Source: Parcubacteria group bacterium RIFCSPLOWO2_01_FULL_48_18
GTDB taxonomy: Bacteria > Patescibacteriota > Minisyncoccia > UBA6257 > WO2-01-48-18
Length of the DNA stretch: 51,155 nt
Assembly: GCA_001824435.1 (NCBI GenBank)
Contig: MHXH01000025.1
Location: 1 to 51,155, forward strand
Direction of reading: 5' to 3'
Both the position numbers and the translations under genes were made by a program. The notes under the pieces were generated by a model, which worked only from the letters and a program-made list of their open reading frames with translations, was not told the DNA's origin and made no database searches. Positions 8,037-28,012 of the stretch are shown here, piece by piece (position 1 is the stretch's first letter; each line of letters starts with the position of its first letter).

Positions 8037-8067
8037 GGATGAGGCATCTCGGACTCTGAACCTCTCA
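8037..8067. repeat. degenerate copy of the 35-bp CTCGGACTCCGAACC repeat
   Basis: It shares the CTCGGACTC(T/C)GAACCT core with the near-identical copies at 16820-16854 and 22087-22121. In the RNA sense (minus) it starts 5 bases after the CCA of the tRNA 3' half at 8073, the same position as at 22.1 kb. Confidence 0.6.
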
Positions 8068-8072
8068 CAAGT

Positions 8073-8126
8073 TGGCAGTCCCAACGGGATTCGAACCCGT
8101 GTTTTCAGGATGACCCCGCACTGAAA
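8073..8126 (-). other. tRNA 3' half (T arm, acceptor strand, encoded CCA)
   Basis: In the minus sense a 5-bp T stem, the TTCGAAT loop, acceptor strand TGGGACT, discriminator G and CCA are all present. The acceptor strand pairs over 7 positions (two G-U) with GGTCCTA at 8354-8360. GTGCGGG here pairs with CCCGCAC at 8326-8332. The matching 5' half therefore lies on the other side of tRNA-Glu(CTC). The region between the anticodon side and the T stem is about 15 nt, too long for a normal class I variable loop, so this may be a relic. Confidence 0.5.
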
Positions 8127-8237
8127 ATTTAAAGTGCTCCCAACCGGAATCGAACCGGTGTTTCGTGGATGAGAACCACGTGTCCTAGGCCACTAGACGA
8201 TGGGAGCATGCATGCATTATGGTTTAAATTTTAGTGC
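8118..8237. repeat. inverted repeat enclosing tRNA-Glu(CTC)
   Basis: The arms are GCACTGAAAATTTAAA (8118-8133) and TTTAAATTTTAGTGC (8223-8237). In the transcript they form a stem of roughly 16-18 bp around the tRNA, counting G-U pairs and one bulge. Confidence 0.7.
8135..8207 (-). tRNA. tRNA-Glu(CTC)
   Basis: A complete 73-nt cloverleaf without encoded CCA. The acceptor strands are GCTCCCA/TGGGAGC with discriminator A. The anticodon stem is CGTGG/CCACG with loop TTCTCAT, giving anticodon CTC. The T arm contains GGTTCGATTCC. It is flanked closely by an inverted repeat and by the two halves of another tRNA. Confidence 0.93.
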
Positions 8238-8260
8238 AGGATAAGGAACCTGGCGCCTGT

Positions 8261-16889: not shown

Positions 16890-18215
16890 TCATTTTCCTG
16901 ATAATTTCTTGCGGTAGAAAATCAATCCGACACCGATGGCAAGTACAAAACCGACAACAGCCAACGCCCAAAACGCTAAAGGCGTCTTTTTTTCTTTGCT
17001 TTCGCTGCTCGCCTGTTTTTGCCGCGCTTGCCACTCATCTTTCGGAGTGGCAGTCTTATAGACAAATTCGCCGCTTTTTGGAATTTCAACGCGCTTAATG
17101 GGTTTATCGTAAGACGACGAAAGAACAACGGTTTTGCCGGTTTTTTCGCTCGTCACTCTGATTGTTCCGTCGTAGATCTCATAAACGGCAACATCGGTGT
17201 CGGGATTGTACGCAACCCCAAAGTGCGTTCCTTGAACACTCCCGCTATTGTTTCCTGCCCTAATCTGCACATCAGCAGAGAATGTGCCCGGGTTGACGTC
17301 TAGGTTCATGTCGCCCAGGTGCACATCCAGAACCATCGCCGCCTTGGCCTCGGGGCGGTTCTTGATGAAGTTCTCGATCCCCACCTGGGTAAGTTCCTCG
17401 ACCTTGACCACCGCAATGCCCTCGAAATCCAGGACGAGCGTGGAATCAAAGTCGGTCTGGATGATCGACCCGTGCCGGATCTTCATACCCACGGTGGCGT
17501 CCTTCCAGTCCTTCTGGCTACGAAGCTGGAACTTCACGCTGCCGGTCAGCTCCTTGACCACGGCGTAGTCCAATCCCTTGGGCGGATGATCCCAATTAAG
17601 CTGCTCCCGTTCGCTCTCTAAAAAATCATCTTGGTAGGACGTTGCTTTTTCCGGTTTGGTGCCCGCAAGCGATTCCGTTTCTTCAATAAATTCGGCGTCA
17701 TCGACGGTATGAACGGTCTGTTCGTCTGCTGTCGGCGGGTTTGACGACTCCCCATCGCCGCCTTCCTCCTTCAAAGACTTCGTAATGGGATCTTCAACAA
17801 CATCAATATCGCGGGTATCCGATGGTGGCGGAGATGACGATTTCGAAGCATCTGGCGGGCATGTCGTTTTGGTTCGGCATTCCTGTTGGGCGGCCGAAGA
17901 GCAGGCGTTTACACAATTCATGTCAGAACCGTAGCAGGTGGCCCCCGGAGGATCGCCGGGCTGGCAAGGTTTTTCTACTACAGGACATGCCGCGCTGCAC
18001 GCGTTAAGTTCGGAAGTTTTTCCTTCCATGCAGGCGCGAAACTCATCTTCGCCGCATGCCGCGCTCGCGCCACCGGGCATTACACCCAGAATCTCTTCCG
18101 CTTGGACTGGCGCGAGTTCTAAGAATTGATTGTTCAGTACCCCGACCGCAAATGCCGCAACGAGCAGCGCGCCGAAAAATAGCGAGATTATTTTTATTGG
18201 CACATTGTTTCTCAT
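16890..18215 (-). CDS. FecR-domain exported protein with C-terminal membrane anchor (copy 1)
   Basis: 441 residues with a signal peptide or anchor (about 5-30), then a Cys-rich segment with repeated C..AC spacing (CGEDEFRACMEGKT onward) that suggests disulfides outside the cytoplasm. An acidic Ser/Pro linker follows, then a FecR-like beta domain (about 225-360, including GDMNLDVNPGTFSAD and GTIRVTSEKTGK). The C-terminus has a membrane helix with basic residues after it. It is a paralogue of the gene at 20740. Ends are near-identical, but the centre (about residues 215-320) differs, and in this copy the codons there are strikingly GC-rich. FecR domains elsewhere sense or bind at the cell surface; the partner here is unknown. 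The gene lies 32 bases after the DUF2207 stop. Confidence 0.82.
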   Translation of the reverse strand: MRNNVPIKIISLFFGALLVAAFAVGVLNNQFLELAPVQAEEILGVMPGGASAACGEDEFRACMEGKTSELNACSAACPVVEKPCQPGDPPGATCYGSDMNCVNACSSAAQQECRTKTTCPPDASKSSSPPPSDTRDIDVVEDPITKSLKEEGGDGESSNPPTADEQTVHTVDDAEFIEETESLAGTKPEKATSYQDDFLESEREQLNWDHPPKGLDYAVVKELTGSVKFQLRSQKDWKDATVGMKIRHGSIIQTDFDSTLVLDFEGIAVVKVEELTQVGIENFIKNRPEAKAAMVLDVHLGDMNLDVNPGTFSADVQIRAGNNSGSVQGTHFGVAYNPDTDVAVYEIYDGTIRVTSEKTGKTVVLSSSYDKPIKRVEIPKSGEFVYKTATPKDEWQARQKQASSESKEKKTPLAFWALAVVGFVLAIGVGLIFYRKKLSGK

Positions 18216-20739: not shown

Positions 20740-22053
20740 TTATTGAGAAACTCGCCTTTCCAATGATTTCCTGCGATAGAGTACCAATCCGACACCGGCA
20801 GCAAGGGCAAAACCAACAACAGCGAACGCCCAAAACGCCAAGGGCGTCTTTTTTTCTTCGCTTTCGCCGCCCGCTTGTTCCTGCCGCTTTTGCCACTCAT
20901 CCCCAGGAATAGCAGTTTTATAAACAAATTCACCGTCTTTTCCAATTTCAACGCGCTTAATAGGTTTATCGTAAGACGATGAAAGAGCGACGGTTTTGCC
21001 GGTTTTTTCGCTCGTCACTCTAATTGTTCCGTCATAGATTTCGAAAACGGCAAAATCAGCTTCGGGATCATACGCGGCTCCAAAATGGGTTCCTCGAACG
21101 CCTGTCACGATATTGCCCGCACGAATCTGCGTGTCGGCCGAGAAAGTACCCGGATTTACATCAAGGTTCATATCGCCAAGTTTAAGCTCGAGATTAGCAC
21201 CCAGGGGCCTCGGCCTGAGATCGAGTTGAACTTGACTCAATTCACCTATTGTAACTATACTACCGTCCGGCATAACGAGGGTTACTTCTGTATCAAAATC
21301 AGTCTGAATATAACCACCCGTTTCGGGAATGATGTCGCCTCCACTGACACCGATCCAATCCTTTCTGCCTTCAGTCTGAACCTCAACCCCCTTACCGTCA
21401 CCGTCAATGGCTAACACGTACACCGGCCAGTCATTACCTTTCGGAGGAGGCCGCAACGCGCGAAGTCGTTCCCATTCTTCCTTAAACGGACCTATTTTTT
21501 GTGGTTTGGTGTCCGCAAGCGATTCTGTTTCTTCAATAAATTCAGAATCGTCAACGGTGTGAACGGTCTGGTCGGGCGATAGTGTTCCTTTTATTCTTAG
21601 CGGCGCGTCTTCCATTATCTCTTGCGACGATGGCAATCCAATCATTGTTTGTGGCGGCGGGGATGACGATTTCGGAACGTCTGGCGGACAAGTCGTTTTG
21701 ATTCGGCACGTCTGTTCAGCGGCCGAAGAACAGGCATTTAAACAACCCACGTCATAACCGTAACATGTGGCCCCCGGAGGATCGCCGGGCAAGCAAGGTT
21801 TTACCCCCTGCGGACACCCCCGACCGCAGGCATTGACTTCGGAAGTTTTTCCTTCCATGCAGGCGCGGAATTCATCTTCGCCGCATGCCGCGCTCGCACC
21901 ACCGGGCATCACACCCGGAATCTCTTTTGGAATCTCTTCCGCTTGGGCTAGCGCGGATTCTAAAAATTGAATTTCCATTACCCCAACCGCAAATGCCGCG
22001 ACGAGCAACGCGGAGAAAAATAACGCGGGGGGAAATAGCGAAATCGTTTTCAT
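20740..22053 (-). CDS. FecR-domain exported protein with C-terminal membrane anchor (copy 2)
   Basis: Paralogue of the 16890 gene: signal helix, Cys-rich segment, linker, FecR-like domain (QIRAGNIVTGVRGTHFG, GTIRVTSEKTGK) and C-terminal membrane helix followed by RRKSLERR. I start at MKTISLF (ATG at 22053). The longer frame to 22068 would translate a TATAAT box that reads as the -10, leaving an almost leaderless message. Codon use is even along this copy, unlike copy 1. About 437 residues. It ends 121 bases before lemA, and probably all four genes form one transcription unit. Confidence 0.82.
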   Translation of the reverse strand: MKTISLFPPALFFSALLVAAFAVGVMEIQFLESALAQAEEIPKEIPGVMPGGASAACGEDEFRACMEGKTSEVNACGRGCPQGVKPCLPGDPPGATCYGYDVGCLNACSSAAEQTCRIKTTCPPDVPKSSSPPPQTMIGLPSSQEIMEDAPLRIKGTLSPDQTVHTVDDSEFIEETESLADTKPQKIGPFKEEWERLRALRPPPKGNDWPVYVLAIDGDGKGVEVQTEGRKDWIGVSGGDIIPETGGYIQTDFDTEVTLVMPDGSIVTIGELSQVQLDLRPRPLGANLELKLGDMNLDVNPGTFSADTQIRAGNIVTGVRGTHFGAAYDPEADFAVFEIYDGTIRVTSEKTGKTVALSSSYDKPIKRVEIGKDGEFVYKTAIPGDEWQKRQEQAGGESEEKKTPLAFWAFAVVGFALAAGVGLVLYRRKSLERRVSQ

Positions 22054-22086
22054 TGGCATATTATACACTATCGGCGGTTTTTCTAC

Positions 22087-22121
22087 GAATCCGATGCACC
22101 TCGGACTCCGAACCTATCTCA
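22087..22121. repeat. 35-bp repeat, right copy of the FecR cassette
   Basis: It matches 16820-16854 at 34 of 35 positions. In the minus sense it follows, after 3 bases, the CCA end of the tRNA 3' half at 22125. It can form an 8-bp hairpin (GAGTCCGA/TCGGATTC, with one G-U). Confidence 0.8.
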
Positions 22122-22124
22122 AGG

Positions 22125-22168
22125 TGGCTGGCGGTACAAGGTTCGAACCTGTGGCCCCTGCAATGCTT
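22125..22168 (-). other. tRNA 3' half (anticodon 3' strand, T arm, acceptor, CCA)
   Basis: The minus sense reads TGCAG, variable GGGCC, T arm ACAGG-TTCGAAC-CTTGT, acceptor ACCGCCA, discriminator G and CCA. The acceptor pairs with GGGCGGT of the 5' half at 22303-22309 at six of seven positions (G1:A72 is the mismatch). TGCAG pairs with TCGCA with one mismatch and one G-U. Confidence 0.6.
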
Positions 22169-22274
22169 ACCCCGTTAAATTCTTGGTGCGCGATGCAGGG
22201 ATTGAACCTGCGGCCTTACGGATGTGAACCGTACGCTCTACCACTGAGCTAATCGCGCATGAATCTAACGGGGT
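22169..22274. repeat. inverted repeat tightly enclosing tRNA-Val
   Basis: Arms ACCCCGTTAAATTC (22169-22182) and GAATCTAACGGGGT (22261-22274) pair over 14 bp, with one G-U in RNA. Beyond this stem, CTT/AAG and GCA/TGC pairs separated by small bulges continue into the outer tRNA halves. Confidence 0.8.
22184..22258 (-). tRNA. tRNA-Val(CAC)
   Basis: A complete 75-nt tRNA with encoded CCA. Acceptor GCGCGAT; D arm TAGCTCAGTGGTAGAGC; anticodon stem TACGG/CCGTA around TTCACAT, anticodon CAC; T arm GCAGGTTCAATCCCTGC. It lies only 1-2 bases inside a 14-bp inverted repeat and between the halves of another tRNA. Confidence 0.95.
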
Positions 22275-22310
22275 GAAAGTGCGATACCCTACCGCTGAAC
22301 TAACCGCCCC
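22273..22310 (-). other. tRNA 5' half (acceptor, D arm, anticodon loop with TTC)
   Basis: The minus sense is GGGGCGGT, TA, D arm GTTC-AGCGGTA-GGGT, A, TCGCA and CTTTCAC. The last is a typical tRNA-Glu(TTC) anticodon loop. Instead of the 3' anticodon strand it runs into the inverted repeat enclosing tRNA-Val. The corresponding 3' half is at 22125-22168. Confidence 0.6.
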
Positions 22311-22410
22311 AAAATGCTCCTCTTCTTTTATCTCTAAAACCATTGTATATCAGATTTTGTTGGCGCTCAACTCATTTTTTTATCCTCATTTTTTCTTCTC
22401 CTCAAGCGTC

Positions 22411-27449: not shown

Positions 27450-27535
27450 GAGTATTTCTGCCTCATAGGGCATGTCTGAAAAAACCCCCCTTTCCTGTTG
27501 CAATTGCTCCTGTTCGGTTGCGGCATCGTTGCTCC

Positions 27536-27555
27536 CCTGCCTGCCGGCAGGCAGG
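27536..27555. repeat. perfect 20-bp palindrome CCTGCCTGCCGGCAGGCAGG
   Basis: It is fully self-complementary and lies in the gap between DUF5674 and the broken GIY-YIG gene. It belongs to the same class of short GC-rich palindromes as 8373 and 23597. Confidence 0.8.
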
Positions 27556-27669
27556 TCCTTGGCGTATATTCCGTATACAACCTCGTCGTCGCTCCTTGCC
27601 TCACTCGAACAGGAGCAATTTCACGACGGAAAAGGATTTTTAGACATACTCTAGGTATTTTCTGTGGAC

Positions 27670-27699
27670 TTTATTCGTTTTTGATTGAGCGGGCGGAGG
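27670..27699. repeat. 30-bp direct repeat, copy 3 of 3
   Basis: TTTATTCGTTTTTGATTGAG then CGGGCGGAGG. The tail after it differs from copies 1 and 2. Confidence 0.65.
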
Positions 27700-27745
27700 T
27701 ATTGTTGTTTTTATCCTTCGGGCGAGCGAAACGAGTCGAGAAGCT

Positions 27746-28012
27746 TTACCATTTACCCCACTCGCCTTTGATTAATTTCTCTTTTTTATTTCTATTCCAA
27801 TCTTTAATTTGCTTTTCTCGATTTCTCGCTACTTCCAAGTCTTCATATTCTTCAAGATATACTAATTTCTTAGCGCCGTGGGTTGATGTATATCTTGATC
27901 CGAATTTTGATAGACGTTGCTCATTTCTTATCTATGGATCCCTTGTCAGGCCTGTATAGTATGTATTATCTCTACACTGAATTATGTATACATACCATTT
28001 CCATGAATCCAT
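27746..28012 (-). pseudogene. GIY-YIG endonuclease with an internal stop
   Basis: The frame from ATG at 28012 encodes WYVYIIQCRDNTYYTGLTRDP, the GIY-YIG motif region. An in-frame TAG follows at codon 27 (27932-27934). After it the same frame continues with family sequence (SKFGSRYTSTHGAKKLVYLE, then VARNREKQIKDWNR) to a TAA at 27746. This is a single nonsense change in an otherwise intact 88-codon gene, so it is recent. Family members are UvrC-like small nucleases of unclear role. The stop would leave a 26-residue peptide. Confidence 0.85.

Follow-up and report, generated by a model that had tools for sequence, protein, structure and literature searches.

Integrative elements such as tyrosine-recombinase islands and phages use tRNA genes as targets, keep the tRNA working by restoring one end of the target with an identical short segment, and carry an integrase. 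MITEs, REP/REPIN-like palindromes, and the palindromic elements of Rickettsia are short, non-coding inverted-repeat hairpins that are present in many copies and have also inserted at gene starts and in RNA genes. The intervening sequences of 23S rRNA are hairpins of about 100 nt at loops of the structural RNA, which are excised by RNase III and leave a working but fragmented rRNA. In archaea, the halves of split, permuted, and intron-bearing tRNAs are held by a stem at the anticodon loop. In bacteria of the CPR, a survey from 2024 (PMC11270868) found rRNA genes with insertions that code for GIY-YIG proteins and are introns of neither group I nor group II, and also short inserts without explanation, most insertions being located at the top or the base of stem-loops. 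This survey covers rRNA only and mentions no tRNA.

The locus presented here lies in a stretch of 51,155 nucleotides from the genome of Parcubacteria group bacterium RIFCSPLOWO2_01_FULL_48_18 (the window), and consists of a tRNA-Val gene nested in the anticodon loop of another tRNA gene. As in the integrative elements, a tRNA gene is the target and a tRNA is kept working. However, the insert is a complete, separate tRNA in a hairpin of about 104 nt, the target stays broken, and the insert has no ORF, no integrase gene, and no identical att repeat. With MITEs and the REP-like and Rickettsia palindromes the nest shares the hairpin format, but the family to which its stem belongs combines conserved CCCCGTTAGA ends with variable interiors, some of which are whole tRNA genes, and the larger members encode a GIY-YIG protein and not a DDE or Y1 transposase. 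In contrast to the intervening sequences of 23S rRNA, the nest carries a replacement tRNA. The insertions in rRNA occur in the same bacterial group and likewise comprise small GIY-YIG genes and short inserts that are not introns; by analogy, they may be the same phenomenon in rRNA.

All features of the nest are on the minus strand, and the layout given in the preliminary description, a complete tRNA-Val within an inverted repeat with the halves of a split tRNA outside, was confirmed there. The outer 5' half (GGGCGGT TA GTTC AGCGGTA GGGT A TCGCA CT, 22309-22278) comprises the acceptor strand GGGCGGT, the D arm, the anticodon-stem strand TCGCA, and the loop bases CT. It is followed by the left boundary TTCA (22274..22277), which is conserved at nested loci of related genomes, the left arm CCCCGTTAGATTC of the inverted repeat (22273-22261), the intact inner tRNA-Val(CAC) with its CCA (22258-22184), the right arm GAATTTAACGGGG (22182-22170), and the right boundary TAAG (22166..22169), which reads CAAG or CAGG in relatives. 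The outer 3' half (CAT TGCAG GGGCC ACAGG TTCGAAC CTTGT ACCGCCA G CCA, 22165-22125) contains CAT, the anticodon-stem strand TGCAG, the T arm, the acceptor strand ACCGCCA, G, and CCA. The stem, previously counted as 14 bp, has 13 bp including one G-U pair, and reaches 14 bp only with the next A-T pair. The outer acceptor halves indeed pair at 6 of 7 positions, and in the outer anticodon stem, TCGCA and TGCAG pair with one mismatch and one G-U; the nested structure had been extended to 22087 and stops at 22125. The inner tRNA, which scores 72 bits, is the sole Val(CAC) gene found in the genome (an assembly of 29 contigs, for which the tRNA census combined searches with the reading of individual stretches). 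The nest region of 193 nt folds with z = -4.0, and none of 200 shuffles was equally stable. The upstream neighbour is rplL, the gene of ribosomal protein L7/L12 (22522..22893, minus strand).

The outer gene had been taken for a tRNA-Glu(TTC) with the anticodon loop CTTTCAC. Compared with a library of 423 tRNAs, however, the outer body best matches Val(CAC), followed by Val(GAC) and Val(TAC), and Glu is absent from the top five matches, which rules out a tRNA-Glu. Of the supposed loop, only CT are loop bases; TTCA is the boundary of the insertion, and the final C is the first of the stem. In addition, an intact Glu(TTC) gene is present elsewhere in the genome (G000:C29:39622), as is an intact Ala(TGC), so that both tRNAs that joined outer loops could have mimicked exist as ordinary genes, and the outer halves are decayed in relatives (L032, L092, L066, L091). 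The intact Glu gene and the decay together are the findings that the preliminary description had named as refuting its reading. What holds of it is the insertion of a tRNA into a tRNA gene, the host gene being Val and not Glu. The closest relative of the outer tRNA, with 88% identity, is the outer tRNA in a comparable nest on a Doudnabacteria contig (L100), and compared with this relative it is damaged: it has G1-A72, a mismatch at 28-42, and a D stem consisting mostly of wobble pairs. The best reading is that the outer gene is a Val remnant that is free to decay and to accept further insertions.

A tRNA that is split in its anticodon loop cannot decode. For the outer gene to function, the nested precursor would have to yield two tRNAs, with the outer halves joined by an undescribed bacterial step, possibly involving RtcB. 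The genome does contain an RtcB ligase, the stem would keep the halves together, and several outer tRNAs of other nests have full pairing. However, contiguous joins with a 7-nt loop, worked out by hand, give only TTC, TGC, or AGC in the window and only TAT, TAA, or CAA in L101, so that no splice restoring the Val anticodon exists in either locus and a joined, working outer tRNA in the window nest is unlikely. Furthermore, the isoacceptor in question already comes from the inner tRNA, many relatives have decayed or interrupted outer halves, the archaeal-type endonuclease (EndA, PF01974) had no match in the genome while the control matched all four archaea, and the element is found in both orientations relative to the transcript, unlike RNA splicing signals. 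We regard a precursor with two functional products, and with it the splicing step proposed earlier, as highly improbable. Given the RtcB ligase it is conceivable, but very unlikely, that both tRNAs of the nest are used, the outer one, once the inner tRNA has been excised, as a joined or two-piece tRNA held by the 13-bp stem, which would constitute a new route of tRNA maturation in bacteria.

The location in the anticodon loop could also point to a known intron, either of group I or of the archaeal bulge-helix-bulge type, with a tRNA inside it by coincidence, and the tRNA-Phe of this genome does have a group I intron (L238, C16; Rfam match), although that insertion looks quite different from the nest. 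The chance of this is negligible. The approximately 104 nt are filled by the stem and the tRNA and leave no room for a group I core, and no Rfam intron match (RF00028 core) was obtained in 22000-22400 even at E<=10, which excludes a group I intron. The junction had been said to recall an intron-processing structure, but the sequence of a 3-nt bulge, a 4-bp helix, and a 3-nt bulge is absent: TTCA and TAAG stand beside a continuous 13-bp stem. Together with the missing PF01974 gene this excludes an archaeal intron, and the nest further differs from the archaeal split tRNAs in the complete tRNA inside and in having no splice that would restore the anticodon.

The nested layout, which was to be looked for in related genomes, recurs in many of them. 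A DNA search of 60 relatives recovered the same stem enclosing a tRNA-Val with split tRNAs outside, and pattern searches of the order, of GTDB contigs, and of the phylum added further nested loci, bringing the layout to more than 20 loci in relatives and in more distant bacteria, at most three levels deep (triple nests L100, L121, and L120). Among the contig titles are Jorgensenbacteria, Liptonbacteria, Doudnabacteria, and a Spirochaetia MAG. Inner and outer tRNA have the same orientation in all nests, and the pairs comprise Val(CAC), Val(TAC), Val(GAC), Met, Ala(CGC), Ile(GAT), Arg(TCG), Arg(CCT), Thr(TGT), Pro(CGG), and Gln(CTG). The insertion site is the anticodon loop, the D loop (L074, L075, L097, L120), or the T loop (L193). 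The order shows a conserved arrangement in which tRNA-Val(CAC) follows rplL; the tRNA is plain in L050, L038, L057, L044, L037, and L035, whereas the window, L032, L033, L058, and L219 have it nested. Given 29 contigs, one might think of an assembly artefact, or of chance similarity, but many assemblies made independently show the layout, the neighbourhood with rplL is conserved, and the scores of the flank test described below have a clear upper tail; we give these explanations virtually no weight. A phage origin of the nest was also rejected. With blastn, phages returned only ordinary tRNA matches, and an inverted-repeat screen that followed the pattern scan of IMG/VR (53 contigs) listed no nested case among them.

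The state of the outer copies differs between loci. Decay or interruption affects the outer halves in L032, L092, L066, L091, L046, L088, and L252, but all inner genes are intact. In L033 and L092 little is left of the outer halves around a still perfect 13-bp stem, L032 has lost its outer 3' half, and L088 has a second hairpin in the outer T arm that its sister L089 does not have. Within tRNAs, insertions without a tRNA are found only in outer copies (L034, L088, L124, L225, L222, L223). This is consistent with an inner gene that is alive and an outer gene that is dead. However, outer tRNAs with a perfect fold also exist (L101, L089, L097, L217, and the outer Leu of L229), and these must either be young or under some constraint.

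How far the inner tRNA corresponds to the gene it interrupts was assessed by scoring the 130-nt flanks of 411 tRNAs against the 5' and 3' halves of 50 isoacceptors. With a score of at least 36 as cut-off (most other tRNAs stay below 28), 20 of the 411 have clear outer halves. These best match the amino acid of the inner tRNA in 18 and its isoacceptor in 14 of the 20 cases, the exceptions being L100, where Val(CAC) is second, and L121, a Met for which Thr comes first. Because the library is rich in Val, the non-Val cases and those with an intact outer anticodon weigh most. The outer anticodon can be read where the D or the T loop was the insertion site, and the unbroken outer anticodons equal the inner ones in L074 (Ile GAT), L075 (Arg TCG), L097 (Val TAC), L193 (Gln CTG), and L120 (Val CAC).

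Such agreement would follow directly if the nests arose by template switching during replication or by local duplication, a strand having switched at a loop, copied a second tRNA of the same kind with its flanks, and switched back. This would leave a complementary stem and require no mobile element, and the outer gene would still be a remnant. In line with this, inner and outer tRNA share long identical bodies in L120, L193, L074, and L121, different tRNAs have unrelated stems, and in L074 and L097 the first bases of the inner tRNA are still part of the stem, as expected of a copied arm. However, the CCCCGTTAGA stem and the boundaries TTCA/CAAG recur across genera and phyla and on many copies without a tRNA. 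Moreover, the acceptor and T stems of inner and outer tRNAs differ, and the inner tRNA-Val of the window, which is not identical to its own outer tRNA, is nearer to the plain genes of relatives than to the latter. We therefore consider template switching possible but rather unlikely. The near-identical bodies with changed acceptor stems in L120, L193, and L074 hint at replacements that might have been copied from the target. The body common to inner and outer Val(CAC) in L120 (G450:C21) is GAGCGTTGCATTCACATTGCAAAGGTCACTGGTTCGAGTCCAG, and the acceptor stems of the two are largely different.

Judged from its sequence, the window stem CCCCGTTAGA...TCTAACGGGG is a member of a widespread family of hairpin insertions. 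We define this CCCCGTTAGA family by an inverted repeat CCCCG...CGGGG of 12-15 bp, an interior of about 80 nt, and many copies per genome, and the window stem agrees with it in repeat and interior. The stem CCCCGTTAGAnnn...nnnTCTAACGGGG is not limited to tRNAs, most interiors being tRNA-free and about 80 nt long. Eight such pairs are present in the genome of the window and at least one in 53 of the 244 genomes of the order. About 12 of the 75 copies listed hold a tRNA, as read from the list, compared with well under 1% expected from the density of tRNA genes. The two arms covary, position 11 being paired in 81 of 84 elements, where all four Watson-Crick combinations occur. Direct repeats of 4 bp (TTCA, TTTA, TTGA, TCCA) border many tRNA-free copies, and the window nest has no such repeat at its flanks (TTCA versus TAAG). 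Anticodon-loop nests of the family mostly have TTCA (or TTTA) and CAAG (or CAGG, TAAG) as boundaries, and the boundaries of the D-loop nests are reverse-complemented, CTTG and TGAA. Therefore, the element has two distinguishable ends and inserts either way round. The enclosed tRNA always follows the direction of the transcript, whichever way the element lies; this speaks for an event at the level of DNA and against RNA splicing signals. The nested TTCA/CAAG boundaries differ from the direct flanks (TTCA/TTCA, TTTA/TTTA), and nested and tRNA-free forms may accordingly differ in mechanism. The Val anticodon loops TTCACAT, TTTACAC, and TTGACAT contain the TTNA preferred next to tRNA-free copies, a possible reason for the frequent insertions into Val. 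Nests with unrelated stems also exist (Glu and Ile of this genome, L220, L221, L223), so that one element family cannot account for all nests; the unrelated stems in this genome show that hairpins bringing a replacement tRNA extend beyond a single family.

Copies of the element also cover the starts of genes (L099, L102, L111, L094), the start codon being part of the hairpin and the right arm being read in frame as SNGV; in L099 the gene is uvrA. In two related copies of about 104 nt in the genome of the window (L106, L116) the right arm is in frame as YLTGF, which in L106 continues into an N-terminus resembling that of type IV pilins, FTAIELILVIAVLALL. The 20 element loci that were checked all lie outside rRNA, and L095 is in a 23S-5S spacer.

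The larger members of the family offer a candidate for how it moves. A GIY-YIG ORF is present in all eight non-composite copies of 263-282 nt that were recovered from the order, once with an in-frame stop, and the product of about 84 aa matches Pfam PF01541 (E=1.4e-14), with UPF0213 proteins as nearest solved relatives. The repeat arm encodes the C-terminal YLTG in four of the GIY-YIG copies. This suggests that the GIY-YIG nuclease may move the hairpin family. In the genome of the window we found no GIY-YIG gene bounded by the CCCCGTTAGA inverted repeat, and the nest insert has no GIY-YIG ORF between its repeats. Loci of the GIY-YIG element are L186 (339-593, minus strand), L188, L206-L208, L210, and L212-L214; the whole gene is located between the CCCCGTTAGA and TCTAACGGGG arms.

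We consider it probable that hairpins inserted in tRNA loops are retained if they bring a replacement of the same isoacceptor, and that the outer gene is a remnant. A hairpin unit with the stem CCCCG.../...CGGGG carrying a complete tRNA-Val(CAC) would have entered the anticodon loop of the resident tRNA-Val(CAC) and split the gene. The host would survive through the same tRNA supplied by the insert in the same transcriptional direction; since small genomes usually have one gene per isoacceptor, the insertion would be survivable only in this way. The inner tRNA would be released by ordinary RNase P cleavage and 3'-end trimming, and do the work, while the outer halves would decay or take further insertions. 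The GIY-YIG nuclease would move the family and the tRNA would travel as cargo, with selection as a filter for matching cargo, which would account for the identity and the common orientation of inner and outer tRNA.

Insertions into single-copy essential RNA genes should be lethal, and the nest would be a recurrent natural solution. Because the insert brings a full replacement, the new copy can itself be broken and replaced, as in the triple nests. This would explain the spread of hairpin elements through the streamlined genomes of Patescibacteria, and could be a source of tRNA turnover in which acceptor and T stems are swapped and the identity is kept. It also points to a minimal GIY-YIG element of about 270 nt that seems not to have been described outside rRNA. 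In open-access texts we found no description of nested tRNAs, of the repeat sequence, or of mobile GIY-YIG elements in CPR bacteria. What appears to be new is that tRNAs recurrently nest in their own kind and bring a replacement along, and that the stem of the nest is connected with a minimal GIY-YIG element. Since tRNA gene finders report only the inner gene, the nested layout is easily missed.

A T-arm pattern search and the flank test revealed at least five other tRNAs of the same genome that are nested likewise, namely Glu(CTC), Ile, Leu, Pro, and His. The Glu(CTC) nest is a second one within the window, spanning 8073-8260 on the minus strand. Its inner tRNA (8134..8207) lies between the left arm GCACTAAAATTTAAA (8223..8237) and the right arm TTTAAATTTTCAGTGC with one bulged base (8118..8133), a stem unrelated to that of the Val nest. 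The outer Glu(CTC)-like 3' half TCATCCTG...GGGACTGCCA is at 8073..8113, and its decayed 5' partner, ending in CAGGTTC, at about 8252-8246 (all minus strand). Ile(GAT) sits in Ile halves (L235), Leu(CAG) within a well-preserved outer Leu (L229), and His(GTG) within a decayed His (L236), and Pro(TGG) has two 5' halves upstream and has lost the 3' half (L252). An Asp-like tRNA (L237, C6) contains an insert of about 240 nt, similar in size to the Phe intron, for which Rfam gave no match. tRNA-Lys and tRNA-Asn were not found in the genome and may be missing from the assembly. The gaps at Lys, Phe, Asn, and Asp were considered as a sign of functional split tRNAs and dismissed, Phe having the group I intron and Asp the insert.

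Both nests of the window are followed by a similar repeat AGGTTC(A/G)GAGTCCGAG(A/G)TGC, at about 22085-22115 and 8045-8065 (minus strand), of which further copies are at G000:C25:16820 and 57341. Immediately downstream of the Val nest is the ORF 20740-22068, which has a paralog at 16890-18215 (both minus strand); both encode about 441 aa and, by eye, are FecR-like with a C-terminal membrane anchor. Finally, a palindrome of the CCTGCCTGCCGGCAGGCAGG type is found in tRNA loops and flanks of L046, L054, and L056, and is read as LPAGRQV in the window ORF 27498-27959.
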